Below, piece after piece: positions 8,773-56,165 of a stretch of DNA of 64,000 nt. Source of the DNA: Anaerolineales bacterium (GTDB taxonomy: Bacteria > Chloroflexota > Anaerolineae > Anaerolineales > JABWBV01); contig JACKAX010000017.1 of the NCBI GenBank assembly GCA_020634875.1, positions 1 through 64,000 of the forward strand. The letters run 5' to 3'. Every line of letters starts with the position of its first letter. Within the stretch, counting starts at the first letter, position 1. Below the pieces are notes generated by a model. The model worked only from the letters and a program-made list of their open reading frames with translations, did not search any database and had not been told where the DNA came from. The translations under genes were made by a program, and so were the position numbers.

Positions 8773-8821
8773 CTCGGTTGGTCAAAACTCTTTACCTTGA
8801 ATTTATTCCTTGGAGACCCTC

Positions 8822-29333: not shown

Positions 29334-31163
29334 TTAAGTCGCCTGTCCCTTAAACTGGCTCATATACAGGTGATGATAAAACCCCTTTTGCGCCAACAAC
29401 TCTTTGTGATTCCCCCGCTCGATAATTTCCCCATCTTTGATCACTAATAATTCACTCGCCTCGCGGATGGTACTCAACCGGTGAGCAATGACAAAACTCG
29501 TGCGCCCCGCCATGAGGCGGAGCATGGATTTCTGAATGCGCGCCTCAGTGCGGGTGTCCACACTGCTGGTAGCCTCGTCGAGGATCAGAATGCGCGGGTC
29601 AGCCAAAATGGAACGGGCAATGGTGAGCAGTTGGCGTTGACCCTGGCTGAGATTGCTCCCACGTTCAGAGAGCATCGTCTCATAGCCATGTGGCAGTTGG
29701 CGGATGAAATGATCGGCGTCGGCCATTTTCGAGGCCTGGATGCACTCTTCGTCGGTCGCGTCCAGCCGTCCGTAGCGGATGTTGTCCATCACGGTAGCGG
29801 AAAACAGGAAGGTGTCTTGCAGTACGATTCCCAGTTGGCGGCGTAGGCTGGATTTTTCAACGTGGCGGATGTCATGGTCGTCAATCGTGATGGCACCACT
29901 GTCAATGTCGTAAAAACGCGAGAGCAGGTTCACCAGCGTGGTTTTGCCCGCCCCGGTAGGGCCGACGAGGGCGATGGCTTGACCTGGTTCGGCGTGTAGG
30001 GTCATGTTTTTGATGACGGGGATGCCGGGCAGATAGCTGAACGTGACCTGATCGAAGTGGACTTCGCCGCGAATCGTGTCGAGGGGTTTAGCGTCGGGGT
30101 CGTCCACCAACTCGCGAGGGGTGTCCATCACTTCGAAGACGCGCTCTGCTCCGGCCAGGGCTGCCTGGATATCGTTGTAAATATTCGCCAACTGTCGAAG
30201 GGGTTGGATGAACCGGCGTCCGTAACTGATGAACGTGGCAATCGCCCCGACCGTTGCGAGGTCGCGGATGGCGAGCCAGCCCCCCACGCCCGCGAGCACG
30301 ATCACGAACAGGTTGCCGAGGATATTGGTGAGCGGCATCAGCAGGAGCGCGTAGGAGTTCGCATAGACACCCGCGCGGTACACAGCCTCGTTGTGTTCGC
30401 GAAAGGTTTCGACCGCCCGATCATTGCGCCTGAACGCCTTCACCACCCGTTGCCCGCTGATGTTTTCTTCCATCGTGCCGTTGAGCTGTCCCAGGCTTTT
30501 TTGCAAATCCCGAAACCCCCGCCGCGTGTACCGGGCCACAAATCCGGTGAACCAAAACGTGATCGGGACCACCACCAACGCGGCCAATGCCAACCAGACA
30601 TTGAGCACAAACATCGCGACGAGAATTCCGACAAGGGTCAGACCGCCCGCCACGAGCGAGGTGACATTTTGGGAAATAGCCTGGTTGATAGCGTCAATGT
30701 CGTTGGTCAGTCGGCTCATCAGTTCCCCGGCAGGGTTGCGGTCGTAAAAGCTGAGGGAGAGGCTTTGCAGGTGTTTGAATAAATCTTGGCGGAGTTGGCG
30801 CAGTGCGCTTTGAGAGATGCGCGCCATGAACCAGTCGGAAGTGGATTGGAACGCGGCACTGAGCAGGTATACCGTCAGCATCAGCAGGGCGATGCGGATC
30901 AGTCCGGCGACATCGTGGGTGCTGATAAAGCGGTCAATCGCAACACCCATCAGGTACGGGCCGACGAGGTCGAGTAGGGTGTACACGAGAACAAGCACGA
31001 ACACGCCGCTCAACGCGGGCAGATGGGGGCGAAGATAGTACAGGAAACGGCGCAACGCGTGGCGGGCGTCTTTGGCGCGTTCGACACTGCGCGGGGTGGC
31101 CGGGCCGCGCATCAGGTTGGGGTTCATTTGGGCTTGTTTGGTGTCGGTGGGTTGGTTAGACAT
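29334..31163 (-). CDS. ABC exporter half-transporter, catalytically complete partner
   Basis: A 609-aa protein: six membrane helices (about 45-340) followed by a nucleotide-binding domain with Walker A GPTGAGKTT, signature LSQGQRQ, Walker B ILILDEATSSVD (catalytic Glu present) and switch IAHRLSTI (His present). It pairs with the neighbouring half-transporter to form a heterodimeric exporter of the TM287/288, BmrCD or LmrCD type, probably for drugs or lipids. ATG 31163 follows GGGAGG and overlaps the upstream stop by 8 nt, so translation is coupled. The frame is open a further 84 codons upstream, but that region belongs to the partner gene in another frame. Confidence 0.93.
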   Translation of the reverse strand: MSNQPTDTKQAQMNPNLMRGPATPRSVERAKDARHALRRFLYYLRPHLPALSGVFVLVLVYTLLDLVGPYLMGVAIDRFISTHDVAGLIRIALLMLTVYLLSAAFQSTSDWFMARISQSALRQLRQDLFKHLQSLSLSFYDRNPAGELMSRLTNDIDAINQAISQNVTSLVAGGLTLVGILVAMFVLNVWLALAALVVVPITFWFTGFVARYTRRGFRDLQKSLGQLNGTMEENISGQRVVKAFRRNDRAVETFREHNEAVYRAGVYANSYALLLMPLTNILGNLFVIVLAGVGGWLAIRDLATVGAIATFISYGRRFIQPLRQLANIYNDIQAALAGAERVFEVMDTPRELVDDPDAKPLDTIRGEVHFDQVTFSYLPGIPVIKNMTLHAEPGQAIALVGPTGAGKTTLVNLLSRFYDIDSGAITIDDHDIRHVEKSSLRRQLGIVLQDTFLFSATVMDNIRYGRLDATDEECIQASKMADADHFIRQLPHGYETMLSERGSNLSQGQRQLLTIARSILADPRILILDEATSSVDTRTEARIQKSMLRLMAGRTSFVIAHRLSTIREASELLVIKDGEIIERGNHKELLAQKGFYHHLYMSQFKGQAT

Positions 31164-32922
31164 TTTGACCTCCCAAATCTCCCGCCAAAACGCCATCGCC
31201 GAGTTGGGAGTCGTAAATTTCTTGATAGGTGGGGCTGGATTGCATGAGTTCCCGGTGCGTGCCAAGCGCGACGATTTGTCCGTGGTCGAGGACGACGATT
31301 TTGTCTGCGTTGAGGACGGTGCTGATGCGTTGGGCGACGATGAAACTGGTGCGCCCGCGCATGATCGTTTCGAGTGCGTCCTGGATTTTGCTTTCGGTTT
31401 CCACGTCCACCGCACTGGTGCTGTCGTCGAGGATCAGGATTTTGGGTTGGACGAGGAGGGCACGGGCGATGGCGATGCGCTGTTTTTGGCCCCCGGACAG
31501 GTTGACGCCGCGTTGTTCGACGTGGGTATCGTATCCGTCGGGTAGGTCAACGATGAAGGGGTGGGCTTGCGCGGCTTTGGCGGCGGCGACGATTTCTTCG
31601 AAGGTCGCGGTGGGATGCCCGTAGGCGATGTTGTCCCGCACGGTGCCGGAGAAGAGCACGGTTTCTTGCAGGGCAACGCCGACCTGTGCGAGGAGCGAAT
31701 CCTGCGTGAGGTCGCGGACATCCACGCCGTCAATCAATATCCGGCCCCCGGAGACATCGTAGAAACGCGGGATCAGGTTGACGAGGGTGGATTTGCCGGA
31801 GCCGGTCGCGCCGAGGATGGCGATGGTTTCGCCGGGTTCGGCAGTGAGGTTGATGTTTTGGAGAACGGGGTCGGCGCAGTCACCATCGTAGGAGAAGCAG
31901 ACGTTTTCGTAGGTGACACGCGCGGGGACGGCGTCCGGCAAGGGGTGGGCAGCGGGGAAGTCCACCACGTCGGGGGTGTTGGTCAGGACTTCGTTCACGC
32001 GTTCGGCGGAGACGTTGGCGGCGGCCATCACCTGCGCGAGGTTGGACATGATCACGAGCGGGGTCATCGTCGTGAGCAGGTAATTTGTGAAGGCGACGAT
32101 TTCCCCCAGGGTGAGCGTGCCGTGAATGGCTTGTAAACCACCCGCCCAAATCACGATGACGATGCCCACGTTGATCAGGAAGGTGAGCGAAGGCATGAGA
32201 AAGGCCATCCACTGCATGACGCGGATGGAGCGTTCGGCGAAGTCTTCGTTGGCGAGGGCGAAACGGTCGGTTTCGTGCGCGGCCCGGTTGAAGGCTTTGA
32301 CGACGCGGACGCCTGCAATGTTTTCTTGCAGGACGGTGTTGAGGGCGTCGAGTTTGCGTTGGACGGCAAGGTAGAGGGGCTGAGTGTGGGAGATGAACCA
32401 GACGATGATCACACCCATCACGAGCAGGAGCGGCATGAGGGTGGTCGCGAGCCGCGGGCTGGTGGAAAACATCAGGATGATGCTGCCGATCATGAGGAGC
32501 GGGGCGCGGGTGCCGATGCGGATGAAGGTGCGGATGATCCGCACGATCATGGTGATGTCGCTGGTGAGGCGAACCATCAGTTGCCCGGTGCGGAGGCGGT
32601 CGAGGTTGCCGAAGGAGAAGGTTTGAATTTTGAGAAAAAGGGCCTCGCGTAAGTCGCGGCCAAAGCCTTCGCTGGCTTGTACGGAGAGGTTGTTGTTGAG
32701 AATGGCGAAAATGGTGCTCAAGACGGTGATCAAGAGCATGAACGCAGTGGTTCTGAGGATCATCGCCTGATCTTTTTGGGCGATGCCCTGGTCAATGATG
32801 TGTTGGATCAGGCGGGGAATCGCTAAGTCCATGACCACGACCGCCGTGAGGAAGATCAGTGCCCAGGTGCTCTGTTTGCGGTAAGGGCCGAGGAAACGCG
32901 TGAGTTTGAGGATGTCGTTCAT
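31156..32922 (-). CDS. ABC exporter half-transporter, degenerate-site partner
   Basis: A 588-aa protein with six membrane helices and a nucleotide-binding domain: Walker A GATGSGKST, signature LSGGQKQR, Walker B ILILDDSTSAVD (Asp in place of the catalytic Glu) and switch VAQRISTV (Gln in place of His). These two substitutions are the classic mark of the non-hydrolysing site in heterodimeric exporters. TATAAT read on the minus strand (32936-32931) lies 8 nt before the ATG, so the message is probably leaderless. It is the first gene of a two-gene operon. Confidence 0.93.
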   Translation of the reverse strand: MNDILKLTRFLGPYRKQSTWALIFLTAVVVMDLAIPRLIQHIIDQGIAQKDQAMILRTTAFMLLITVLSTIFAILNNNLSVQASEGFGRDLREALFLKIQTFSFGNLDRLRTGQLMVRLTSDITMIVRIIRTFIRIGTRAPLLMIGSIILMFSTSPRLATTLMPLLLVMGVIIVWFISHTQPLYLAVQRKLDALNTVLQENIAGVRVVKAFNRAAHETDRFALANEDFAERSIRVMQWMAFLMPSLTFLINVGIVIVIWAGGLQAIHGTLTLGEIVAFTNYLLTTMTPLVIMSNLAQVMAAANVSAERVNEVLTNTPDVVDFPAAHPLPDAVPARVTYENVCFSYDGDCADPVLQNINLTAEPGETIAILGATGSGKSTLVNLIPRFYDVSGGRILIDGVDVRDLTQDSLLAQVGVALQETVLFSGTVRDNIAYGHPTATFEEIVAAAKAAQAHPFIVDLPDGYDTHVEQRGVNLSGGQKQRIAIARALLVQPKILILDDSTSAVDVETESKIQDALETIMRGRTSFIVAQRISTVLNADKIVVLDHGQIVALGTHRELMQSSPTYQEIYDSQLGDGVLAGDLGGQNV

Positions 32923-32954: not shown

Positions 32955-33617
32955 TCACTCGCCCAATAATTCTCGCAACTGACGAAGCGCTTGATTGTCT
33001 ACCACCGCCAACACCTCATCCTCCGGCAAAAACATCATATTCCCGCGCGGCGTAAGCACTTTGCCTTCACGAATGATCGCCGCGATGGTACAAGTTTCGG
33101 GTAAAGACAAATCCTTCAAAGGGGCATCCAACAGTCCAGAACCTGGCCGCAGTTTCTCCTCCACCAGCGAATACTCGCCTCGCCGCAGTTTGAGCAAGGT
33201 CATCATATCCCCCAGCGACATCTCCTCCGCCACCAACCGCGCAAAAATCTCCGTCTGATTCAACGCCACGTCCACGCCCATTTCGGCGGTGAACAGCCAG
33301 AAATTTTTTGGGTTGTTCACGCGTGCAATCGTTCGCGGTACGTGAAACTCGAACTTCGCCAGCGTCGTGATCACTAGATTCGCCTCATCTTCCCCCGTTA
33401 CTGCGGCCAGCACATTCGCCTGCCCAATCCCCGCGGCCTCCAAAACCCCTGGCGAACTACCATCCCCCACCACCAGCACCTCTGCCGGGAGTTCGTCCGC
33501 TAATTTCGCCACGATTTCAAGCCGGTTTTCAATCAACCGCACCTGATACCCATCCGTCACCAATTGCTGTGCCAAAAACGCACCGGTTTTACCGCCGCCA
33601 ACCACAATTACAAACAT
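32955..33617 (-). CDS. TrkA/KtrA-type RCK potassium-channel regulatory protein (second copy)
   Basis: A 220-aa protein. Residues 1-130 form a Rossmann NAD-binding RCK_N domain with the glycine loop VVGGGKTGAFLA and acidic RLIENR. Residues about 140-220 form an RCK_C domain. Such proteins gate K+ transporters in response to nucleotides. GAGGT precedes the ATG at 33617, 12 nt from the stop of the first TrkA-like gene, so the two form an operon and may form a heteromer. No TrkH/KtrB pore is in the window; the partner could be the permease encoded at 37287. Confidence 0.9.
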   Translation of the reverse strand: MFVIVVGGGKTGAFLAQQLVTDGYQVRLIENRLEIVAKLADELPAEVLVVGDGSSPGVLEAAGIGQANVLAAVTGEDEANLVITTLAKFEFHVPRTIARVNNPKNFWLFTAEMGVDVALNQTEIFARLVAEEMSLGDMMTLLKLRRGEYSLVEEKLRPGSGLLDAPLKDLSLPETCTIAAIIREGKVLTPRGNMMFLPEDEVLAVVDNQALRQLRELLGE

Positions 33618-33629
33618 AAGATACCTCGC

Positions 33630-34277
33630 TTACACATCCAACAATTGCTTCAACTGCTCCATTGCCGAAGCAGCCACCGTCAAATGCAGCACATCCCGCG
33701 CCATAAACGCCGTCCCGATAAAAGGGATCAACGCATGTTCCTGCCGGGTGATCGCCGTCACGCTAATCTCGCCGGGAATGCTCAAATCCCGCACCAACCG
33801 CCCCACCAACCGCGGCGGAACTTCGACCGACAGGATCGCCACTTCGCCATTGCCAAACGTAAAGATCGGGTCCAGTTCCGCGTGGGTGAGTAGTTCCCGA
33901 ATGCGTTCAGCTCCCCACGTGGTGGAAGAAATCGTTCGTAAGCCCAACCGCTGATAAATCTCCGCCCGCCGCGGATCGTACAAACGCGCCACCACGCGCG
34001 GCACATGAAACACCTCCCGAGCAATCCGCGCCGCGACGATGTTCGCATTGTCCGACGAACTGGTCGCCGCGAACGCGTCCGCTTCCTCGATCCCGGCCTT
34101 GAGCAGCACCTCGCGGTCGAACCCAATCCCTTTCACGCGTTGGCCCTTAAATCGCTCGGGCAAGCGCGCCAGCGCATGGGCATCGTAGTCCACCACCGTA
34201 ACCGCGTGCCCCTCATCCGACAAAATGTAGGCCAGTTGTTCGCCAACGCGCCCGCAACCCATCACAATCACTTTCAT
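33630..34277 (-). CDS. TrkA/KtrA-type RCK potassium-channel regulatory protein (first copy)
   Basis: A 215-aa protein with RCK_N (VMGCGRVGEQLAYIL, then VTVVDYDAHAL) and RCK_C domains, a paralogue of the product of 32955-33617. AAGGAGG upstream fixes ATG 34277, although the frame is open 28 codons further. The gene lies 130 nt after the P-type ATPase gene with a terminator between, so the two RCK genes have their own promoter or depend on read-through. Confidence 0.9.
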   Translation of the reverse strand: MKVIVMGCGRVGEQLAYILSDEGHAVTVVDYDAHALARLPERFKGQRVKGIGFDREVLLKAGIEEADAFAATSSSDNANIVAARIAREVFHVPRVVARLYDPRRAEIYQRLGLRTISSTTWGAERIRELLTHAELDPIFTFGNGEVAILSVEVPPRLVGRLVRDLSIPGEISVTAITRQEHALIPFIGTAFMARDVLHLTVAASAMEQLKQLLDV

Positions 34278-34334
34278 ACGGCCTCCTTCATTGAGCCTGA
34301 AAAATGCTTCCGTAACAGCCAGAAGGTGTCCCTG

Positions 34335-34380
34335 AAAAAAGGATGAAAGGCGAATGTACATTCCCCTTTCATCCTTTTTT
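34335..34380 (-). terminator. Rho-independent terminator after the P-type ATPase gene
   Basis: Bases 34335-34350 and 34365-34380 pair over 16 bp, with a further GAATG/CATTC stem inside. On the minus strand the stem ends in a run of six U. It closes the P-type ATPase transcript before the RCK genes. Confidence 0.85.
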
Positions 34381-34406
34381 TAGGGAAATTTCCTCCCCAG
34401 GCCTCG

Positions 34407-37187
34407 TTACTTTCTTCTAATCCGCCGAACCAACCCCTTCCGGCCCCAATCCAGGGTGTACAAAATAAACGGATACAACCCCAGCCCGCCCCAAAAAAAC
34501 CACGGCAGCGGAAAATGGTCAAATTCCCGCGCCACGCGGGGCGTATAGATCATCCCCAAAATCAACGCCAGTTCCAGCCCCACCCCAAACCACAGCGACG
34601 GATTGCTAAACCACCCCAGGCGACGCCCCCGGTTCGTCTCCGTGCGGCAAGCAAACGCGTTCCCCATCTGGGCGAGCACCACCCCCGCGTGAAAAACCGT
34701 GACCGCCATAAAATTAACCTGCTGCGGTGTCAGCACCCCCACCACGGGAAGGGGAAAAGTCCCCTGCGCGTCGCCCCACGCACGTACCAGGAAAAAGCCG
34801 GTGTAACACAACAACGCCTCGATTAACCCCAGCCACAAAAACGCCCGGATGAGCAGAGCACGGTCCACCAATGGCTTCCCACGCGGGCGGGGCGGGTGCT
34901 GCATCACGTCCGGCTCAGGTTTTTCCGACCCTAGCCCGAGGCCGGGAAGCATGTCCGTGCCCAGGTCAATCGCCAGGATTTGTTTCACCGTCAGGGCCAG
35001 GGGAATTTTGAGCGTCGCCGTCAGCATAAAGGGCAAAATTTCGGGGACATTGCTGGAAAAAATATACGTAATGAATTTCCGTAAATTATCGTACACCGCC
35101 CGCCCTTCTTCAACGGCCCGCACGAAACTGGCAAAGTTATCGTTCGTCAGAATCACGTCCGCCGCCTCCTTCGCCACATCCGTGCCTGTAATCCCCATCA
35201 CAATCCCCACATCGGCTTTTCGCAGCGCGGGCGCGTCATTCACTCCATCCCCGGTTACAGCCACCACATCCCCCCGCGCCTGAAACGCCGCCACCAACCG
35301 CAACTTGTGGTCCGGGGCCATGCGCGCAAAAATCGTCTCCTCATTCAGCACCGTCTGAAACTCCGTCTCAGACATCATCTCCACCTCCGCGCCGGTCACG
35401 ATGCGCGGGTTTAGCGTTGTCAACATCCCCACACGCCGCGCAAACGACTCTGCCGTCAGCCCATAATCCCCCGTCACCATCACCATTCGAATCCCCGCTT
35501 CCCGGCAGGTTTGCACCGCTTCGGCCACTTCGGGGCGCGGCGGGTCCTGCATCGCCACCAACCCCAACAGGGTCAGGTCGCATTCAAGCCGTTCGGGCGA
35601 GCGCGCCCCCTGTGTGGGAATTTCCCGGCGCGTGACCGCCAACACCCGGAGGGCGTGGTGCGCATAATCATCGTTCGCCGCCAAAATGTCGTTGCGGATC
35701 GTTTCATCGAGGGGAAGCGCCTGCCCATTGAGTAACACCCGTGAACACAACTGCAACACTTCCCGCGGCGCACCTTTGACGAACACCACCTCTGTCCCGG
35801 TCAACTCTGCGGATAGCGGGCCGGTTTTCCCGTTCGAAACGCGGCGATGGACCGTCCCCATCCTTTTGCGGCGGGCGTCAAAGGGCAACTCGTGGATGCG
35901 CGGATATTCAGCAGTGAGAGCGGCCTCGTCCAATCCGCCTTTGATCGCTAAAACTTTGAGCGCGGCCTCCGTCTGATCGCCCAGGCTGCTCCACTGCGGG
36001 CGGGTTGGGTTGGGAGGAATCAGCCGCGCGTTATTGCATAGCGTTGCAGCGGTGAGAAGATCGCGTAAATCCTCCTGGGCAAAAGTTCCTTCAGACGTAA
36101 ACGTGCCTACCGGATCGTACCCCACCCCCGATACGCGCAATCGTTCCCCGGACACCCACACCTCTCGTACAGTCAACTGATTTTGGGTCAGCGTGCCGCT
36201 TTTGTCCGTACACAAGGTCGAAACCGTCCCTAACGTTTCCACGACCGAAAGTTGTTTGACCAACACCCCACGTTGGGCGAGCCGTTGCCCCGCCAAAGCC
36301 ATCGTCAAAGTGATCGTGGCGGGCAGCCCTTCGGGAACTGCCGCGACGAGAATCCCCAAGGCTAACAAAAAAGCTTCTCGTTTCGCCAGTCCCACATCTG
36401 AAACGCCGACCACGAAGACGATCAGGCTAATACCTAATGCGGCGATGAAGATCTGCCGGGTCAGGCGTTTGAGTTCCAGTTGGAGCGGGGTGGGTTCTTC
36501 TTTGGCGGTTTGTGTCAGGTGGGCGATGCGGCCAATCTGGGTCAACATTCCCGTAGAAAAGACCACTGCCCGCCCTGTCCCCGCGATGACGGATGTACCT
36601 GCAAAAATCAGGTTCGGGCGTTCCAATTCGCCAAGGTCATCTCGCAGGGAGGCGTCGGCGGTTTTGTGGGCGGGCATCGTTTCCCCGGTCAGGACAGCGT
36701 TGTTTGTACGGAGGCCAAATTCTTCCACCACCCGTGCGTCGGCGGGGATGTTGTCCCCCTCGGCGAGGATCAGAATATCGCCAGGAACCACTTCGCTGGC
36801 AGGGATTTGCACTTCTTGCCCATCCCGAAGCACGCGGGCATACGAGGGCAGAAGTTGGTGGAGGGCTAACATCGCCTGTTCGGCGCGTGCTTCCCGCCAA
36901 AAAGTAAACGTGGCATTGATCAGGATCAACAACCACATCACCCCGCCTAAGACAGGTTCACGGACGATCAACGCAATAGTCCCTGCCAGCCAGAGCACGA
37001 GCGACAGGGGATGGAAGATGTGTTGGAGAAACTTTACTCCGCGCGAGGGGAGCGGGGGCGTGGAAAGGCGATTGTCTCCGTACAAATCCCGGCGCGTGGT
37101 CACCTCCTTGCGGGGCAGGCCGAGCGGGGAGGTGACCAGGGCGGGATAAACGTCCGCCGGACGTAAAGCGTATAAAGGGGTCGCCAT
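34407..37187 (-). CDS. P-type cation ATPase, type II with Na+/K+-ATPase-like membrane motifs
   Basis: A protein of 926 aa from ATG 37187. Visible are a cation-ATPase N-terminal domain, actuator motif LTGETMP, M4 motif VPEGLPATIT, phosphorylation site CTDKSGTLTQN, KGAPREVL, hinge TGDGVNDAPA and ten likely membrane helices. M5-M6 reads NVPEILPF then DLGTDMLPGLGLGSEKPEPD, close to the NIPEITPF and DLGTDMVP of animal Na+/K+-ATPases, so Na+ export or K+ exchange is plausible; Ca2+ transport is the alternative. An upstream in-frame GTG at 37253 sits inside a hairpin and is less likely. It lies 100 nt downstream of the KimA-like permease gene. Confidence 0.9.
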   Translation of the reverse strand: MATPLYALRPADVYPALVTSPLGLPRKEVTTRRDLYGDNRLSTPPLPSRGVKFLQHIFHPLSLVLWLAGTIALIVREPVLGGVMWLLILINATFTFWREARAEQAMLALHQLLPSYARVLRDGQEVQIPASEVVPGDILILAEGDNIPADARVVEEFGLRTNNAVLTGETMPAHKTADASLRDDLGELERPNLIFAGTSVIAGTGRAVVFSTGMLTQIGRIAHLTQTAKEEPTPLQLELKRLTRQIFIAALGISLIVFVVGVSDVGLAKREAFLLALGILVAAVPEGLPATITLTMALAGQRLAQRGVLVKQLSVVETLGTVSTLCTDKSGTLTQNQLTVREVWVSGERLRVSGVGYDPVGTFTSEGTFAQEDLRDLLTAATLCNNARLIPPNPTRPQWSSLGDQTEAALKVLAIKGGLDEAALTAEYPRIHELPFDARRKRMGTVHRRVSNGKTGPLSAELTGTEVVFVKGAPREVLQLCSRVLLNGQALPLDETIRNDILAANDDYAHHALRVLAVTRREIPTQGARSPERLECDLTLLGLVAMQDPPRPEVAEAVQTCREAGIRMVMVTGDYGLTAESFARRVGMLTTLNPRIVTGAEVEMMSETEFQTVLNEETIFARMAPDHKLRLVAAFQARGDVVAVTGDGVNDAPALRKADVGIVMGITGTDVAKEAADVILTNDNFASFVRAVEEGRAVYDNLRKFITYIFSSNVPEILPFMLTATLKIPLALTVKQILAIDLGTDMLPGLGLGSEKPEPDVMQHPPRPRGKPLVDRALLIRAFLWLGLIEALLCYTGFFLVRAWGDAQGTFPLPVVGVLTPQQVNFMAVTVFHAGVVLAQMGNAFACRTETNRGRRLGWFSNPSLWFGVGLELALILGMIYTPRVAREFDHFPLPWFFWGGLGLYPFILYTLDWGRKGLVRRIRRK

Positions 37188-37286
37188 CGGGCGTCCGAAG
37201 GGGTAGGAAAAAGTCTGCGCTTTCCGCTCGTGTGGGATTTGGCAATCCCACACGGGTGATTCACGGCGTTATTCTTTTACAAGTCT

Positions 37287-39110
37287 TTAGTGAACGGGAT
37301 CAGCGGTAGGCTGGTCGCCCGTTTTTGGCGCGCCTTCTTTGGGGGGGAGGGGAGCCAGGTATTTCGCCAGGAGGGAGGGGGCTTCGGGGTGGTCCACGTG
37401 CATGGCATGGTCGTAATCGCCCGCGGGAACGGGCACAGGTTCAAACCGTTGCGGTCGTCGCACGCCGAAGAGTTCAAAGAACCGGGTAACACTCATCAGC
37501 AATGCGTACCGGTATTCCTGCATCCGAAGCGACTGCCATTCCACAATTGAGGCCATCGCGCCTTCCACCCGCGCTTTTTCTCGCACGATGCGGTGGATTT
37601 GTTTGGGTTCCCGGTAGCCGATGGGCGAAAGAAGCAGCGCGTGGGCCGCGAGGGCGAGGATGGTGAAGGAGATGAGTGCAGCCCATCCGCCTTCTTCCCA
37701 CTTCCCGACGATTTGCCCAACAAAGACTGTCGCGGACAGCCCCGCGGCAAACGTGGCCCCGATCACCGCCCATTTTCGGGCGCGGCCCTCCATGTGTGCC
37801 TGGGCGTGACGGCGCACCGCCAACCCCATCGCGGTGATGGGCATGAAGACACCGACCCCGTAAAATGGCACGGCCACGGTCGTTTGCCCCCGCACGATCA
37901 GCATCAAAACCACCGAGACGATAAACCCAACCGTAACCGAACGGGTGAACGTACCCTGTGGATTGCGGTACACGACGATTTCAGGGATTTCTCCGATGGC
38001 GACATCGCGCCATGCGGTCGCTTGCAAGTCTTGAAACGCGGTCATCGAGGCGGCGGCCAGCATCAACACGGCGATAATTTGGTAAGCCCAAAACAGAATG
38101 ACGCCGCCGGGAATTTCGTTGAACCCGATAAAAGCCAGGTTGCCGACGAGCGTGCGGCCATACGTGCCGTCGAAGGTGTTGAAGCGAATGGCGAAATAGG
38201 TCAGGAACAAGGTGGTCAGCCCGCCGTAAAACAGGAAGGAGGTTTGCACAAAACGTCCGATCCCGGTTTTGCCGCTGTAAAACTCCCAAATTTTGCCGAG
38301 TTTGGGGAGGTGTTTCTTGCCCCACACGACCAGTCCGGCATCTTCATGGCGCATAAACTGAATCCCGTTCGAGACCGCTTCCAGCCCGGTGAGGGCGACC
38401 ATGCCTTTCATCGAGGCGGTGAGCATGTGCATCAACGCCTGGGCAAGCGAAACTGGTGCAGGCGTTTCCGTGATGGGCGCGGCGGCTACGCCCTTGAGGT
38501 GGGCGATCACCAACCCGATCCCCATCGCGACCGTGAGCATCGCAAAGATAGCGATCAGGACGAAGACAAGTTTGGCCGATTCCCCGCGCCCGCGGATGGT
38601 GAGAAACCACGTTGCGGTGGCGAGGATTGCTCCGATGCCAAAGTGGTAAATCCAATTGGTGCCGTACAGCCCGAGGATGGAAAGCAGTTGGTCGCCGCCG
38701 GACAGCGCAGAAACGACGATGGTCAGCACATAGTCCTGAATCAGCGTCACGGCGACGATGAGACTCAGGGTCGGCCAAAGATAACGCATGGACGCAGTGT
38801 AGGAACCGCCGCCTTCGTTGAAGGGGCCAAGCGAAAACATATACAACGCGCCAAAGACGAAGTTCGCAAACGCGATCACAAACACGGCAATGTAGGCTTT
38901 GTCCTGCAAGCCGAGGGGATGCAAAGCACTCATCATTTCGCCGGTGGCGTAGTAGTAGGAGGTGAAGTAGTCCACCCCAAAGAGCGCCAGCGCGGCAATT
39001 ACCCCGATCTGCCCCGCGCCGTGGATGTGGGCATCTTCTTCCTTTTCGCGCGGGGCCGCGCGATAGGCAAGATAAATGACGAGAATTAATAAGGCAATGG
39101 AAAATAACAT
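37287..39110 (-). CDS. APC-superfamily permease, KimA-like (probable K+ importer)
   Basis: A polytopic protein of 607 aa from ATG 39110 (616 aa if the in-frame TTG at 39137 is used, which would overlap the previous stop). An extra N-terminal helix precedes the APC core of about 12 helices. Numbered from TTG, the residues D56, Y63, D135, Y136, T139, S143, T250 and E253 fall at the spacing of the potassium-binding residues of Bacillus KimA (as I recall D36, Y43, D117, Y118, T121, S125, T230, E233). This points to K+/H+ symport and not amino-acid uptake. Its neighbours (RCK proteins, KdpDE-like pair, P-type ATPase) agree. An amino-acid permease remains possible. Confidence 0.82.
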   Translation of the reverse strand: MLFSIALLILVIYLAYRAAPREKEEDAHIHGAGQIGVIAALALFGVDYFTSYYYATGEMMSALHPLGLQDKAYIAVFVIAFANFVFGALYMFSLGPFNEGGGSYTASMRYLWPTLSLIVAVTLIQDYVLTIVVSALSGGDQLLSILGLYGTNWIYHFGIGAILATATWFLTIRGRGESAKLVFVLIAIFAMLTVAMGIGLVIAHLKGVAAAPITETPAPVSLAQALMHMLTASMKGMVALTGLEAVSNGIQFMRHEDAGLVVWGKKHLPKLGKIWEFYSGKTGIGRFVQTSFLFYGGLTTLFLTYFAIRFNTFDGTYGRTLVGNLAFIGFNEIPGGVILFWAYQIIAVLMLAAASMTAFQDLQATAWRDVAIGEIPEIVVYRNPQGTFTRSVTVGFIVSVVLMLIVRGQTTVAVPFYGVGVFMPITAMGLAVRRHAQAHMEGRARKWAVIGATFAAGLSATVFVGQIVGKWEEGGWAALISFTILALAAHALLLSPIGYREPKQIHRIVREKARVEGAMASIVEWQSLRMQEYRYALLMSVTRFFELFGVRRPQRFEPVPVPAGDYDHAMHVDHPEAPSLLAKYLAPLPPKEGAPKTGDQPTADPVH

Positions 39111-39123
39111 AGCACCAACTCGA

Positions 39124-40239
39124 TTAACTATTTGCAAAAACCTGTTCCATCATCTGCAAACCTGCAAGGAGATGGCGGCGGGTGGAAGGGTTCAGACGGG
39201 TATCCTGGGCGACTTTGACCTGTTCCTGGCGGGTGGCACGCACGACAAACGCCGGGACGAACATGATGCGTCCGGCGGGGATAATTTCAAAATCGTGGGT
39301 GTGCATTTGGAGGGTTTGGTCGTCGAAGAAGGGGAGGCTGAGGCTCAGGCCGCGGTTGAGGTCGTGGGCACCGGCGCGGCGTTGGATGGTTTGGATGATT
39401 TCCCGCGTTTGGTAGCGCGCCAGGGCACGTCCCTGGTTGACCAGTTGGCCCAGCATCCCGTAGCGTTTTTGTTGGTACACGGAGTCGGCGATGAGGTAGG
39501 GGGTGAGGGCAACGGCGGTGTGGAGGACGGTCAAGAATCGCTGCATGGAGGCAACATAGGCTTCGGCTTCCACGAGTGAATTGACGAGGAGGTGATCCTG
39601 ATCGTCAAAGGCAACCCATTGGGGCAGGTAAAAGCGGCGGGCGGCGGGCACGAACGGTGTCAACAAAGTGCCCCGGCCTGTTTCACCGTGCTCGGATTCT
39701 TCGGCGATGGCGTCAGTGGCCTCGGTGAGGGCGGAACCGGGTTCGAAGTCGCTCGCGATGGGGAGGGTGGGGATTTCTTCCTGATCGAGCGCGCGGTATT
39801 GCACGGAGCGGCCTGAGGGGAGCCGATAGTGGACCATGTGGATGGCGGTAGCGTAGCGCAACAATCCAGCGGACGCCGCGAGGGCCGGCGTGGAAGACGC
39901 TTCTAACTCGGCGAGCCTTTGGCGGAGGACGGCGTTCAGGTCGGCGCGGGCGAGGCGATCAAACAGGCCACCCGCGAGTTGTTCGCGTTGGTCGGCGGGG
40001 AGGGGCGCGGTCTGCCCGGTGGGGAGGACGATGGAATCCGGGAGGGTGAACCGAACCTGGGGAGCCGTTTGAAGCAGGGCGTCGGCGATGCGTTGGGCCT
40101 GGGCGTCCAAAAAGCGTTGGACGAGGATGGGTTGGCGTTCGTAGGCGGTTTGCCAATCCGCGAGTTCCTGAGCAAGGAAACTAACTGTCCCGTCTAAAGA
40201 GGATGAATTTTGAGAAAGAGAGGCATTAACAGCAGGCAT
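39124..40239 (-). CDS. Unknown protein in the potassium block
   Basis: A 371-aa soluble protein, not recognised. The N-terminal 120 residues are helical and Gln/Ala-rich (VQRFLDAQAQRIADALLQ). The middle holds an acidic, low-complexity stretch (AIAEESEHGETGRG), and the C-terminal half is mixed alpha/beta with many aromatic residues (RRFYLPQWVAFDD, HTHDFEIIPAGRIMFVPAF). No signal peptide or membrane helix is visible. It starts 3 nt after the stop of the small membrane protein gene and ends 13 nt before the permease ATG, so it is firmly inside this operon. Confidence 0.75.
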   Translation of the reverse strand: MPAVNASLSQNSSSLDGTVSFLAQELADWQTAYERQPILVQRFLDAQAQRIADALLQTAPQVRFTLPDSIVLPTGQTAPLPADQREQLAGGLFDRLARADLNAVLRQRLAELEASSTPALAASAGLLRYATAIHMVHYRLPSGRSVQYRALDQEEIPTLPIASDFEPGSALTEATDAIAEESEHGETGRGTLLTPFVPAARRFYLPQWVAFDDQDHLLVNSLVEAEAYVASMQRFLTVLHTAVALTPYLIADSVYQQKRYGMLGQLVNQGRALARYQTREIIQTIQRRAGAHDLNRGLSLSLPFFDDQTLQMHTHDFEIIPAGRIMFVPAFVVRATRQEQVKVAQDTRLNPSTRRHLLAGLQMMEQVFANS

Positions 40240-40242
40240 GTT

Positions 40243-40641
40243 TTAGTACCAATATTGATCCCAACGCCAAAGCAGGCTGATTTCGACCACGACGGTAATC
40301 AGCAAGACAACCTGACTCGCCGGACTACGCAATAGACGGTTGAGATAGATTTGTAAGCCGAGGAAACTGGTAAGAAGGGTAAGAAAAACACCCCATCCTA
40401 CCAATTCATGAAGCCAGCGAGGAAGACGGGGGGTCTTTTCTTGATCAGGGTCAAAGAAAATGATGCGGATTTTGGGTGAGACGCGCGGCATTTCCTGATA
40501 GGGGATGAGTGACTTTTCGGCTTCGGCGAGAGGAAATGAGAAGAGCAATTCAATTTCTGGGCTGGCAGTTTGTACAGCTACCTCAGAAGGGGTGCGCTCA
40601 GGCGGGGGCGTTTCTTTTTGGAAAGCGGAGGGATCGAACAT
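40243..40641 (-). CDS. Small two-helix membrane protein of unknown function
   Basis: A 132-aa protein, not recognised. The first 75 residues are soluble and Pro/Glu-rich; two membrane helices follow (about 80-100, VGWGVFLTLLTSFLGLQIYL, and about 107-127, QVVLLITVVVEISLLW). AAAGGAT precedes ATG 40641; the frame is open 39 codons upstream but without a ribosome site. It starts a transcription unit running through the unknown 371-aa protein and the permease to the P-type ATPase. Confidence 0.7.
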   Translation of the reverse strand: MFDPSAFQKETPPPERTPSEVAVQTASPEIELLFSFPLAEAEKSLIPYQEMPRVSPKIRIIFFDPDQEKTPRLPRWLHELVGWGVFLTLLTSFLGLQIYLNRLLRSPASQVVLLITVVVEISLLWRWDQYWY

Positions 40642-40739
40642 CGTGAATCCTTTGCTAAAAAATGATTGAAGGTCAGTGAAGGATAGCACCCGCATGTAAA
40701 GGCCAAACAAAGAAAAAAGGCAGGGACATAAAGAAAAAA

Positions 40740-40770
40740 TAAAAAAACGCCCCATCACGGGGCGTTTTTT
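40740..40770 (-). terminator. Rho-independent terminator after the KdpE-like gene
   Basis: CGCCCC (40748-40753) pairs with GGGGCG (40759-40764) around ATCAC, flanked by A7 and T7 runs. On the minus strand the hairpin is followed by seven or more U. It ends the sensor/regulator transcript. Confidence 0.9.
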
Positions 40771-40783
40771 TATTTTTGGTGAG

Positions 40784-41482
40784 CTATTCGCCAGTGGAAA
40801 ACCGGTAGCCGATGCCTGGTTCGCTGAGCAAATAGCGGGGATGTTTGGGGTCAGGCTCTAGCTTTTTGCGGAGTTGGCTCATGTACACGCGGAGATATTC
40901 GACGTTGTCTTCGTAGCCCCCGCCCCAGACTTTTGTCAAGATGTTTTGATGGGTAAGGACGCGCCCGATGTTTTTGACTAAATAGGTCAGCAGGCGGAAT
41001 TCGGTGGCGGTGAGTTTGACTTCGCTTCCTTTCAAAGTGACGAGGTGCGCGCCAAGATCAATGACCAGATCGCCTGTGGTAACGATGGTTTCTTTAGGAC
41101 CTTCAAACGCCTGGGCGGAGTGGCGGAGGGAAACGCGGATGCGCGCGAGGAGTTCTTCGATGCCGAAGGGTTTGACCAGGTAGTCATCTGCGCCCTGATC
41201 GAGGGCACGGACTTTGTCACGTTCGTCTTCGCGGACGGAGAGAACGATGATGGGGATTTGCGTCCACTCCCGCAAACGGCGGCAGACCGTGAAACCGTCT
41301 ATGTCGGGGAGACCGAGATCGAGGATGACAACGTCCGGCGGCGAGGCGACCGCGAGGGCCAGGCCTTCTTCTCCGCGGGAGGCGGTGGTGACACGAAAAT
41401 GTTTGGCGGTCAGGATTGTTCGCAGGGCGCGGAGAATTTGGGGTTCGTCATCAATGACCAGGATGTGGGGTTGGGTGGTCAT
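40784..41482 (-). CDS. kdpE: OmpR/KdpE-type response regulator
   Basis: A 232-aa protein: receiver domain (VIDDEPQI, phospho-acceptor in VVILDLGLPDIDG, Lys in YLVKPFG) and a winged-helix DNA-binding domain ending in RYLLSEPGIGYRF. The region LTATEFRLLTYLVKNIGRVL is typical of KdpE. ATG 41482 overlaps the kinase stop as ATGA, so the pair is translationally coupled. KdpE normally turns on kdpFABC, which is absent here; the adjacent permease operon is the natural candidate target. Confidence 0.88.
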   Translation of the reverse strand: MTTQPHILVIDDEPQILRALRTILTAKHFRVTTASRGEEGLALAVASPPDVVILDLGLPDIDGFTVCRRLREWTQIPIIVLSVREDERDKVRALDQGADDYLVKPFGIEELLARIRVSLRHSAQAFEGPKETIVTTGDLVIDLGAHLVTLKGSEVKLTATEFRLLTYLVKNIGRVLTHQNILTKVWGGGYEDNVEYLRVYMSQLRKKLEPDPKHPRYLLSEPGIGYRFSTGE

Positions 41483-42978
41483 AAGGTTTCTGTTTTCAGG
41501 GTTGGGGGAGGCCGTCCGTTCCAATCCAGGGGGAGGGTGAAGCAAAAGGCAAAGCCGCCGGGCAGGTTTTCAGCCCAAATCGTGCCGCTATGCGCTTCAA
41601 TAATGCCTTTACAAATGGAAAGGCCCAGGCCCGTACCGGTGACGCGGTCAGCGTCGGTGATGCGGTGGAATTTGTCGAAAATCTGGGTAAGGTGTTCGGG
41701 TGGGACGGGTGGCCCCTGGTTGGTGACACGGACGGTGAGGGCGTGCGGCGTGGCACCGGCCTGGATTTGGATGGTGGTGCGAGGGGGTGCGTATTTGATG
41801 CTGTTGCTGAGGAGGTTGGTGAAGACCCGCTCCAGTTGAGAGTAATCTACGGGCACGAGGGGCAGGTCGTCGGGGATGTCGAGCAGGATGAGGTGGTTTT
41901 CGAGGACGCGGTGCATCCGATCAAGGGCGGCGTCTACGATTTCGGCGAGAACGTTCCACTGGCGGTCGGGTTTGAGCGCGCCCGCTTCGAGCCGGGACAT
42001 GTCGAGCAGGTTGCCGACAAGCCGGTTGAGCTGGTCGGATTCTTCATCTACAACGGAGAGGAGTTCGTGGCGAACGGCGGCGTCTTCCCAACCGACTTCG
42101 CCGCTCAACAGACTGGTGATGGAGGCTTTGATGGTGGCGAGCGGGGTGCGGAGTTCGTGGGAGACAGAGGAGAGGAGGGCGGATTTCATGCGGTCGCTTT
42201 CTTCGAGCACCTGGGCGCGGGTTTCGGCTTGTAAAAAGGTGGCACGTTCAAGGGCCAACGCGGTTTGGGTGGCAAAGGTTTGGAGCATTTGCTGTTCGGC
42301 GGAGTTGAGAGGGGTTTCACGCCAGAGATGGAGTTCGCCCAGCAGCCGAGGGGCGGCGGAGACGGGGACAAGGGCGTCGGGAGGCGTGGAGGGAGTGGGG
42401 CGGTCGGGTGGGGTGATGACAGCGATAGGGGGGGCGCCTGCGGGAACGGTCAAATGGACGCAGACTACGCTGGTGCGAAAGGTTTCTTGCACTTGACTGG
42501 CTAGGATATGGGCGATTTCAGGCAGGCTGTTGACGCCAACGAGCCGGACGCTGAGCTCGTAGAGGCGGGTAGCTTCGAGTTCGCGGGTCTGGGCAACTTC
42601 CAGGTTCTTGCGAGCGCGTCCGACCAATTGACTGGTCAGGACGGCGACGAGGAAGAAGATGGCTAATCCAGCTAAATCCTGGGTGTGGAGGACGGTGAAG
42701 GTGTAGTAGGGTTTGGTGAAAAAATAGTTGAGGCCGAGGAACGCGGAAAACCCGGAAACCAGGCCGGGACTTAACCCCCATTGGGTGGTGCTGATGAGGA
42801 CGGGGATGAGAAAGATGAGGGCGACGGTGGAGGTACTCAAAAATTCACGGACGAAAAATAACAGGCCAATCATTAAGAGGGTGGTGAGAAGGGCATTTAC
42901 GTGTTTAAAAACGGGGGAAAACACTTTTGTCACACCGCGTAGTGTACCATTCTGATATTGCACTGGCTTTAAAACCAC
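41479..42978 (-). CDS. kdpD: KdpD-like sensor histidine kinase lacking the N-terminal KdpD/Usp domains
   Basis: A protein of up to 499 aa. Four membrane helices of the DUF4118 type (about 25-115), a GAF-like domain (about 140-260), HisKA with phospho-acceptor in SSVSHELRTPLATIKAS and an HATPase domain (NLLSNSIKYAPP, TGTGLGLSICKGII). This equals the C-terminal half of KdpD; the usual 400-residue N-terminal domain is missing. The start is uncertain: the open frame begins with GTG at 42978, overlapping the SDR stop by 10 nt, and GTG at 42933 or 42924 are alternatives. Confidence 0.88.
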   Translation of the reverse strand: MVLKPVQYQNGTLRGVTKVFSPVFKHVNALLTTLLMIGLLFFVREFLSTSTVALIFLIPVLISTTQWGLSPGLVSGFSAFLGLNYFFTKPYYTFTVLHTQDLAGLAIFFLVAVLTSQLVGRARKNLEVAQTRELEATRLYELSVRLVGVNSLPEIAHILASQVQETFRTSVVCVHLTVPAGAPPIAVITPPDRPTPSTPPDALVPVSAAPRLLGELHLWRETPLNSAEQQMLQTFATQTALALERATFLQAETRAQVLEESDRMKSALLSSVSHELRTPLATIKASITSLLSGEVGWEDAAVRHELLSVVDEESDQLNRLVGNLLDMSRLEAGALKPDRQWNVLAEIVDAALDRMHRVLENHLILLDIPDDLPLVPVDYSQLERVFTNLLSNSIKYAPPRTTIQIQAGATPHALTVRVTNQGPPVPPEHLTQIFDKFHRITDADRVTGTGLGLSICKGIIEAHSGTIWAENLPGGFAFCFTLPLDWNGRPPPTLKTETL

Positions 42979-55196: not shown

Positions 55197-56165
55197 ATGC
55201 GCGCCAAACAAAACCTCCCCTTTTTACCTTTTGAACGTCGCCTGACCATCAGTCTGATTACGGTGACCGCGCTCTTAACCTGCGTCCTTTATCTCGTCTT
55301 TACTTCCCACGCCCCTGAAACCGAACCCCTATCCCGCACCATCCCCGCCCTCGAACAATTCGTCCTCGTCATGGCCGTGTATCCGATCAAGCTGGCTTAC
55401 ATCCTGCTGGCGTTTGGCGCAATGGTGCTTTTATGGAAAGAAACCACCCGCCCTCTGACCGCGTTGCGGTGGTCCATGATCTTTTTCCTGTTTGGCGAAG
55501 TGGCGTGCTGGTTCAACATCCTCTTCTTTTTTGAGGAGAATCTCGTGTTGGAATATATGCACAGTTGGGGGATGGTGATGTGCCTCGGCTTTTTGGTTTA
55601 TGCGGTTTTGGAAGCGTTGGACAGCAACGTGTTTCACTTCAGCGCGCCAGACTCGAAATGCGCGTTGGCGGGCGTGTGCCACAAATGCGCCAAATTTACC
55701 GAAGCCCCGTGCGCGTTGGAACGGTTTTTCAAATGGACGCTTCCCATCGGTATCCTGCTGGCGTTTGTCCCACTCACCGCGCTGGTGGTTCCGATTTCGT
55801 ACAACACGGAGATTTTCGGGTTCGCGAAAAATCTCTCGCACGACGCGGTGGTGCAATGGTACGAACTGCGCTATGTCCCCTGGGCGAGTGTGGCCCTCAT
55901 CGGAGCTGCCTGGCTGCTCACCCTTTGGCGCGGGCGGCGCGCTGACGTGCTCCGGGTTGCCAAGATTTTGATGGCGGCGGGCGCGGGACATCTCCTGTTT
56001 GCCTTCCTGCGCCTGGCCTTTTTTGCGTTCTACCGCGAGCATTTGGTCTGGCTTGTCTTTTGGGAAGAATTTACGGAATTGATCCTGGTGGGGAGTGTGT
56101 GGATTTCGTTGTGGGTGTTCAAACCCGGATTTTTCTCGCGTTGGGCGAAAGTTCTGCCGATTTAG
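55197..56165 (+). CDS. Eight-helix membrane protein with a four-Cys loop
   Basis: A 322-aa protein, not recognised. About eight membrane helices are seen (about 18-36, 52-80, 90-112, 122-141, 180-200, 233-252, 262-285, 290-312). Between the fourth and fifth lies a soluble loop with C155, C161, C164 and C172 (C-x5-C-x2-C-x7-C), which could hold a metal or iron-sulfur cluster. There is no ribosome site; TGAAATAAT, an extended -10 form, ends 5 nt before the ATG, so the gene may be leaderless. Confidence 0.75.
   Translation: MRAKQNLPFLPFERRLTISLITVTALLTCVLYLVFTSHAPETEPLSRTIPALEQFVLVMAVYPIKLAYILLAFGAMVLLWKETTRPLTALRWSMIFFLFGEVACWFNILFFFEENLVLEYMHSWGMVMCLGFLVYAVLEALDSNVFHFSAPDSKCALAGVCHKCAKFTEAPCALERFFKWTLPIGILLAFVPLTALVVPISYNTEIFGFAKNLSHDAVVQWYELRYVPWASVALIGAAWLLTLWRGRRADVLRVAKILMAAGAGHLLFAFLRLAFFAFYREHLVWLVFWEEFTELILVGSVWISLWVFKPGFFSRWAKVLPI

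Follow-up and report, generated by a model that had tools for sequence, protein, structure and literature searches.

A gene cluster in a 64-kb window from an Anaerolineales bacterium (contig JACKAX010000017.1, positions 1 to 64,000) probably represents a K+-limitation module, found in some Anaerolineae (Chloroflexota), in which a KdpE-type circuit drives a KimA-like operon. The cluster occupies positions 32955-42978 on the minus strand and comprises eight genes, in the transcription order kinase, regulator, U171, U371, permease, ATPase, RCK2 and RCK1. An initial annotation of this DNA had described such an eight-gene minus-strand block; its coordinates and order were confirmed, with domains assigned by Pfam. 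The mechanical list of open reading frames (ORFs) sets start codons too early for several genes, and comparison with a related locus (L001, see below) or, for the permease, with its relatives gave likelier, approximate starts at 40641 (U171), 39110 (permease), 37187 (ATPase), 34277 (RCK2) and 41482 (regulator). The features of the locus are as follows.

41479..42978, minus strand: short KdpD-like sensor kinase, with a DUF4118 membrane region, HisKA (including His274) and HATPase
40784..41545, minus strand: KdpE-like response regulator of the OmpR family, whose probable start (~41482) overlaps the stop of the kinase gene
40735..40777, minus strand: strong intrinsic terminator downstream of the kinase-regulator pair (RNA fold -24.9 kcal/mol, z -6.3)
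40728..40743, minus strand: putative KdpE-type box on the terminator T-tract, in which the TTTAT half-site occurs twice at an 11-bp period (from the pattern and family statistics)
40680..40685, minus strand: predicted -10 element TATCCT, starting 58 bp past the box's first base (from the sequence and site alignment)
40243..40641, minus strand: U171 (132 aa if translation begins, as is likely, at 40641), which retains the hydrophobic C-terminal portion of UspTM proteins
39124..40239, minus strand: U371 (371 aa), conserved, without an assigned family, paired with the KimA-like permease (from sequence, model and synteny)
37287..39137, minus strand: KimA-like permease with KimA residues, an extra N-terminal helix and no KimA C-terminal regulatory domain
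34407..37253, minus strand: P-type ATPase of the IIA/IIC group with a DKSGT motif and Na,K-ATPase-like ion-site residues
33630..34361, minus strand: RCK2, a TrkA_N + TrkA_C protein (Pfam)
32955..33617, minus strand: RCK1, a TrkA_N + TrkA_C protein (Pfam)

In the proposed mechanism, the short KdpD-like kinase would, as the protein families suggest, phosphorylate the KdpE-like regulator, which would bind an 11-bp-period TTTAY repeat, located by comparison of related loci, that overlaps the terminator of the regulator's own transcript. Transcription would then be activated at a -10 element whose position, 58 bp past the first base of the box, was likewise established by comparison, and the transcript would encode U171, U371, a KimA-like K+/H+ importer, a P-type cation pump and the two RCK proteins. 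The importer, which retains the KimA residues, would take up K+. Synteny and the missing TrkH/KtrB suggest that this importer, which is without the c-di-AMP domain of KimA, may be gated by the nucleotide-sensing RCK pair, and that U371 may be its dedicated accessory or regulatory partner, while the ion-site residues of the pump indicate that it probably exports Na+ or swaps it for K+. A more ambitious version can be advanced only tentatively: a LeuT-fold importer gated externally by a heteromeric RCK pair and U371, the latter the first of a set of new-fold, KimA-dedicated regulators, with expression under a KdpDE-type circuit that has been rewired and whose operator also serves as the tail of a terminator. 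No description of this module was found in literature searches at title and abstract level, a scope outside which most subscription journals fell. The locus offers a concrete, testable case in which KdpDE-type sensing would have changed its target, with a KimA-type importer taking the place of the Kdp pump.

A conserved gene order around U371 and a KimA-like permease

Genome contigs were scanned with a U371 profile, which yielded 107 relatives, and 79 distinct loci were retained (numbered L; genomes are numbered G). These are labelled as Chloroflexi, as Anaerolineae or its orders, or by genera that belong to the Chloroflexota; the exceptions, L012 and L057, are listed as 'uncultured bacterium'. 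The closest named locus, L001, belongs to an Anaerolineales metagenome-assembled genome, and its U371 is 77 % identical to that of the window. Counting full U371 copies as those above 300 bits and permease copies as those above 500 bits, the gene after U371 is the permease in 71 of 81 cases, the ATPase in seven, another U371 in one and a contig end in two. A strand-aware count of 64 ATPase pieces placed RCK2-RCK1 directly downstream of 51, a contig end after 10 and another ATPase piece after three, the last being tandem genes in L058 and L070 and a split gene in L020. Conservation in relatives was a check on which the initial annotation had staked its proposal, and the gene order recurs in other species, at 79 loci.

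Among 249 sampled genomes of the class, U371 was found in 11, the permease subfamily (>300 bits) in 11 and both in nine; the four unpaired genomes reflect a contig edge (G514), a partial U371 (G492), a permease fragment (G562) and a permease without U371 (G188). Since U371 is present in 11/249 class genomes and in 7/400 genomes of a phylum sample, only a minority of the class carries the module, which is nevertheless large in the protein collection, where 3536 proteins matched the U371 family among 7998 candidates scored and the permease family had 3919 relatives among the candidates scored. In viral contigs, scanned once with a single U371 sequence, no relative was found. The locus gives the large, unnamed family of U371 a setting and a likely partner.

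The permease has no Pfam family match at E 0.01, and KimA is its sole relative by sequence in the PDB at E 0.1 (E 1.3e-15). Its membrane domain has a KimA-type LeuT fold, and all ten KimA site residues compared, which coordinate K+ or couple H+, are kept in the window permease; the residue count for the family took in the 78 of 83 copies that were long enough. The fold and these ten residues are shared with KimA (KUP family) as characterised in the available portions of PMC6994465 and PMC10284832, but the two proteins are only 21-22 % identical over the aligned part, the permease carries an extra N-terminal helix, and the C-terminal PPAT-like c-di-AMP domain of KimA is absent: the KimA alignment ends at residue 455, and residues 508-616 are modelled as a short helical tail. 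Kup matches occur in 8 of the 29 genomes that carry the operon, three of them above the cut-off and all weak, and may be KimA-type proteins. The K+ theme proposed earlier for the block is supported by the kept KimA residues, by kdp genes at 11 of the 79 loci and by U371-permease pairs inside kdp operons (L067 and L039).

U371 gave a single sub-threshold Pfam match (Phage_tail_T, E 0.007), and its structure model, though confident (pLDDT 90.8), shows no recognised fold. Because extra permease copies in L028 (4978-9717) and L021 (5007-7298) are preceded by short proteins that correspond to the C-terminal part of U371 only, the C-terminal part may be the working unit of the family; these short proteins point to a natural minimal version.

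U171 likewise lacks a Pfam match at E 0.01. At its position many relatives encode a 200-250 aa protein, here termed UspTM, in which a domain of alpha/beta appearance is combined with a hydrophobic C-terminal part. Sixteen members were recovered by one model search, with zero to four hydrophobic stretches per member in a crude scan. U171 matches the UspTM model, which was built without it, at E 1.4e-11, is hydrophobic over residues 80-98 and 103-126 and, in both the window and L001, retains only the C-terminal part; it is what is left of a longer membrane protein. The idea that UspTM is a split-off Usp domain of KdpD was set aside as a lead and not a claim: profile comparison with the KdpD Usp+TM region gave p 0.0038 at a probability of 8.8 %, over 162 collinear columns, where seven control families gave p 0.08 or worse, and Pfam found no Usp match in ten UspTM members.

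A short KdpD-like kinase, its regulator and the putative operator

The kinase (499 aa) comprises DUF4118, HisKA and HATPase_c domains and corresponds to that half of KdpD which contains the membrane and histidine-kinase regions; His274 is kept in 30/30 relatives. The earlier label of a KdpD-like kinase thus holds for this core and not for a whole KdpD, as Pfam detects neither the N-terminal KdpD domain (PF02702) nor a Usp domain, and the protein scores 248.5 bits against the NCBIfam KdpD equivalog, whose cut-off of 1123 is not reached. The regulator has the receiver and winged-helix domains of its class (Response_reg and Trans_reg_C), and KdpE is its best NCBIfam family at 241 bits, under the 325 cut-off. 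The N-terminal domain of Escherichia coli KdpD is described in the accessible part of PMC11018627 as inhibiting KdpFABC through phosphorylation of KdpB, a task that would have no object in this operon. A split KdpD is also described for Deinococcus in the available text of PMC5716572, with a separate KdpD-N and a regulator-paired kinase equivalent to the C-terminal half, but that pair adjoins and regulates kdp, whereas the target indicated by the box in this block is a KimA-like operon. The short and the whole pair are paralogous, given that L055 has the short one and a complete KdpD-KdpE pair as immediate neighbours. The short kinase is present in 28 of the 58 loci that have at least 5 kb upstream of U371, and the remaining operon is conserved without it.

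Between the regulator and U171, the T-tract of the terminator includes TTTATTTTTTCTTTAT, which holds two half-sites with an 11-bp period, and an extra TTTAC half-site lies at ~40696-40700. The system resembles KdpDE-KdpFABC in pairing a DUF4118 kinase with an OmpR-type regulator and in having 11-bp-period TTTAY half-sites upstream of the target, the E. coli KdpE site being given in the available part of PMC3264566 as TTTATA and TTTACA, 5 bp apart. It differs in that the kinase is without the serine-kinase and Usp domains and in that the apparent target is a KimA-like operon.

The pattern TTTAY-N6-TTTAY was found between the regulator and the next operon gene in 29/33 loci, where 0.16 sites would be expected by chance (at the rate over all loci) and dinucleotide shuffles gave a mean of 0.24 and a maximum of 3, but upstream of U371 in 0/39 usable loci without this regulator. 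Seven of the 79 loci were left out of these counts, having no matching regulator and a U371 less than 420 nt from the locus edge. Flexilinea flocculi TC1 (L058) is among the species that have both the operon and the box. When spacers of 0-20 were scanned on either strand, enrichment was confined to the 11-bp period (29 loci), with all others at five or fewer. Across 35 aligned sites, a TAnnnT -10 element follows the first base of the box by 58 bp in 24 and by 59 bp in three, where one site may count at both offsets. This predicted box and -10 element, in the regulator-operon gap and in 29/33 loci, support the earlier suggestion that the sensor pair controls these transporters.

A composite pattern of the box, a further half-site and the -10 element was then searched in 25 genomes chosen by hand and not drawn at random. 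It gave 18 matches in 15 genomes, against four for a reversed control, and all 15 are among the 19 genomes with U371; none was found in G188 or in the five genomes lacking both U371 and this permease. Of the 18 matches, 16 could be assigned to this operon, either from their coordinates or because they are identical to aligned sites. Another comes from the closest relative's genome, with a kinase-regulator pair (813 and 445 bits to those of the window) on one side and a canonical KimA gene on the other, and the remaining match (G002, contig 172) looks like chance. Because these predicted sites map to this operon and to a canonical KimA, they tie the regulator to KimA-type genes and not to kdpFABC. 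Most operon genomes searched have the composite operator at one or two sites, which suggests a small regulon that should be easy to test. In the window itself two further box matches occur, at 8791-8806 (+) and 55288-55303 (+), for a total of three against 0.37 expected; the second falls within an ORF (55197-56165), and neither is linked to a K+ gene.

Several findings count against this regulatory scheme. No short kinase was found upstream in 30/58 loci with at least 5 kb in view, and control by the kinase pair is therefore not universal. The strict box is missing in four of the 33 regulator loci (L021, L028, L057 and L070) and the composite site in four of the 19 U371 genomes (G003, G010, G017 and G021), while L114, which has the kinase pair, keeps the layout from terminator to -10 element with merely a degenerate second half-site. 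The box also overlaps terminator T-tracts, although the spacing and the -10 position argue against its being a by-product of these.

A rival explanation is that the kinase-regulator pair serves a kdpFABC operon elsewhere and adjoins this operon by accident. A single-sequence search of the 64-kb window with relatives' kdpA, kdpB and kdpC found none of them, the sole KdpB match being the ATPase itself (84 bits), so the absence of kdpFABC reported in the initial annotation stands for this window; in some relatives, by contrast, kdp accompanies the island. At 11 of the 79 loci kdp genes flank the block or fall within it: in L055 they are upstream with the same orientation, in L078 they are divergent, and in L067 and L039 a kdp operon itself contains a U371-permease pair, placed in L067 between kdpC and kdpD. 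In L001, kdpA-kdpB directly precede the regulator with no kdpC or kinase at that spot, and a KdpD-KdpE pair is encoded at a different place in the genome. kdpA is present in 15 of the 29 operon genomes and, in the class sample, scored above cut-off in 34/249 genomes, including 6 of the 11 with U371 (p 0.001). The kdp genes at 11/79 loci and the kdpA count of 15/29 favour the rival, but a separate, whole-type KdpD gene is in view at 8 of the 11 kdp loci, no KdpE-type box precedes kdpA in L078, the box and -10 element stand between this regulator and this operon, and the composite matches across the 25 genomes fall on this operon or, in one more case, on the canonical KimA. Accidental adjacency is thus very improbable, and a KdpE-type circuit acting on the KimA-like operon is preferred.

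Some further features of these kdp neighbourhoods were recorded. In L067 and L071, which share one contig, the short-kinase operon and a kdp operon that includes a U371-permease pair of its own are arranged back to back. Kdp operons of Chloroflexota encode an unnamed protein of a 128-aa type between kdpB and kdpC, and some also hold a stand-alone DUF4118 protein (L067 6984-7370 and 8082-8840; also L039, L045, L064, L071 and L078).

The likely client of the RCK pair

Both RCK genes encode TrkA_N and TrkA_C domains. TrkH/KtrB, the usual RCK partner, is not among the proteins of the block and was not found in 28 of the 29 operon genomes; a c-di-AMP cyclase domain is present in 28/29. Six genome stretches were examined further, among them L114 of G188, the genome without U371, where the order is kinase-regulator-UspTM-permease-RCK2-RCK1 with neither U371 nor the ATPase. 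Neighbourhoods of canonical KimA were also retrieved (17 permease loci and one end piece), and KimA adjoins RCK genes in 8 of the 17 loci fetched, one of the eight being cut by a contig end. In Streptomyces, an RCK_C gene (Vnz_27460) and a KimA-like gene (Vnz_27465) have neighbouring locus tags, according to the available part of PMC10117811. Because of the RCK-permease synteny and the detection of TrkH/KtrB in just 1/29 operon genomes, the permease is made plausible as the most likely RCK client.

The alternative, in which the P-type ATPase or another channel would be the target of the RCK pair and U371, draws on the position of RCK2 directly after the ATPase in 51/64 pieces and on the seven U371 copies that precede the ATPase. 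It is opposed by the 71/81 U371 copies that precede the permease, by the permease-RCK2-RCK1 order of L114, by the canonical KimA genes beside RCK genes in 8/17 loci and, within the portion of PMC10117811 available, by the Streptomyces pair. We regard it as quite unlikely and favour gating of the permease, a proposal of the initial annotation that is plausible by synteny and by the failure to find TrkH in 28/29 genomes but is weakened by the rarity of TrkH in the class.

Other observations also weigh on the opposite side. TrkH was found in just 59/249 class genomes overall, and its absence was rejected as a signature of the operon (TrkH in 1/11 operon genomes versus 58/238 others, p 0.47). The c-di-AMP signature, taken from the accessible portion of PMC10117811, was found in 0/52 RCK1 and 0/51 RCK2 sequences and in neither of the window's two. 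The canonical KimA of L123, which matches Bacillus subtilis KimA over near full length (E 2.7e-146), keeps its C-terminal domain beside an RCK pair, so an RCK pair need not replace the regulatory domain of KimA. Seven of 81 full U371 copies, as counted above, precede the ATPase instead of the permease.

CeoBC and similar TrkA pairs resemble this system in having two separate TrkA-type RCK proteins, and the Streptomyces genes in the neighbouring locus tags of KimA-like and RCK_C genes, but no kinase pair, ATPase or U371 is mentioned for either in the text available. A word search of two papers on CeoBC of Mycobacterium tuberculosis found no permease, TrkH or Rv2690c named. The present locus bears on the membrane client of stand-alone TrkA pairs such as CeoBC where TrkH/KtrB are absent. 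If RCK proteins do gate a LeuT-fold transporter, the range of RCK-controlled targets would widen.

The P-type ATPase and flanking genes

The ATPase has E1-E2_ATPase, Cation_ATPase N and C and HAD domains. It falls below both family cut-offs, with 546 of 703 bits for the SERCA-type TIGR01116 and 537 of 946 bits for the Na,K-type TIGR01106. With Na,K-ATPase residue numbering applied to the alignment, ion-site positions E327, Y771, S775, N776, E779, D804, D808 and Q923 are kept in 53/53 sequences and E954 in 43/53, while T772 and D926 are changed, the latter to N in 50/53. The phosphorylation site reads DKSGT in place of the canonical DKTGT, with S in 51/53. The protein shares the P-type II domains and most Na,K ion-site residues with the Na,K-ATPase (IIC) and bacterial IIA Ca2+-ATPases, but differs from them in the DKSGT motif, in the N at D926 and in lying under both subfamily cut-offs. 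Its earlier description as Na+/K+-ATPase-like fits most of the ion-site residues, but a IIA/IIC-like protein that lies by score between Ca2+ and Na,K pumps is the closer assignment, and its ion can be given as a candidate only. From the ion-site residues, our preferred guess, at somewhat better than even chances, is that it exports Na+ or exchanges Na+ and K+.

Alternatively, the ATPase could be a Ca2+ pump and the operon a general ion-stress cluster rather than a K+ module. The slightly higher SERCA-type score (546 versus 537 bits) is in line with this, as is the near-equal PDB match to the Listeria Ca2+-ATPase lmo0841 (476 versus 491 bits). Against it stand the kept Na,K ion-site residues, including D804, a position at which SERCA has Asn, and the K+-related character of the remaining operon. 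We consider a Ca2+ pump unlikely, if with an appreciable chance, and retain the K+ module with a pump that would move Na+.

An Rfam search of the window gave no family at gathering score and no known riboswitch such as ydaO. A role in defence was dropped after three proteins were checked with PADLOC, which returned a generic weak match to the kinase alone. A two-gene ABC exporter at 29334-32922 begins 32 nt past RCK1; ABC matches occur at just 2/79 related loci and these genes were excluded as members of the module, but they might be co-read with the operon in this lineage.

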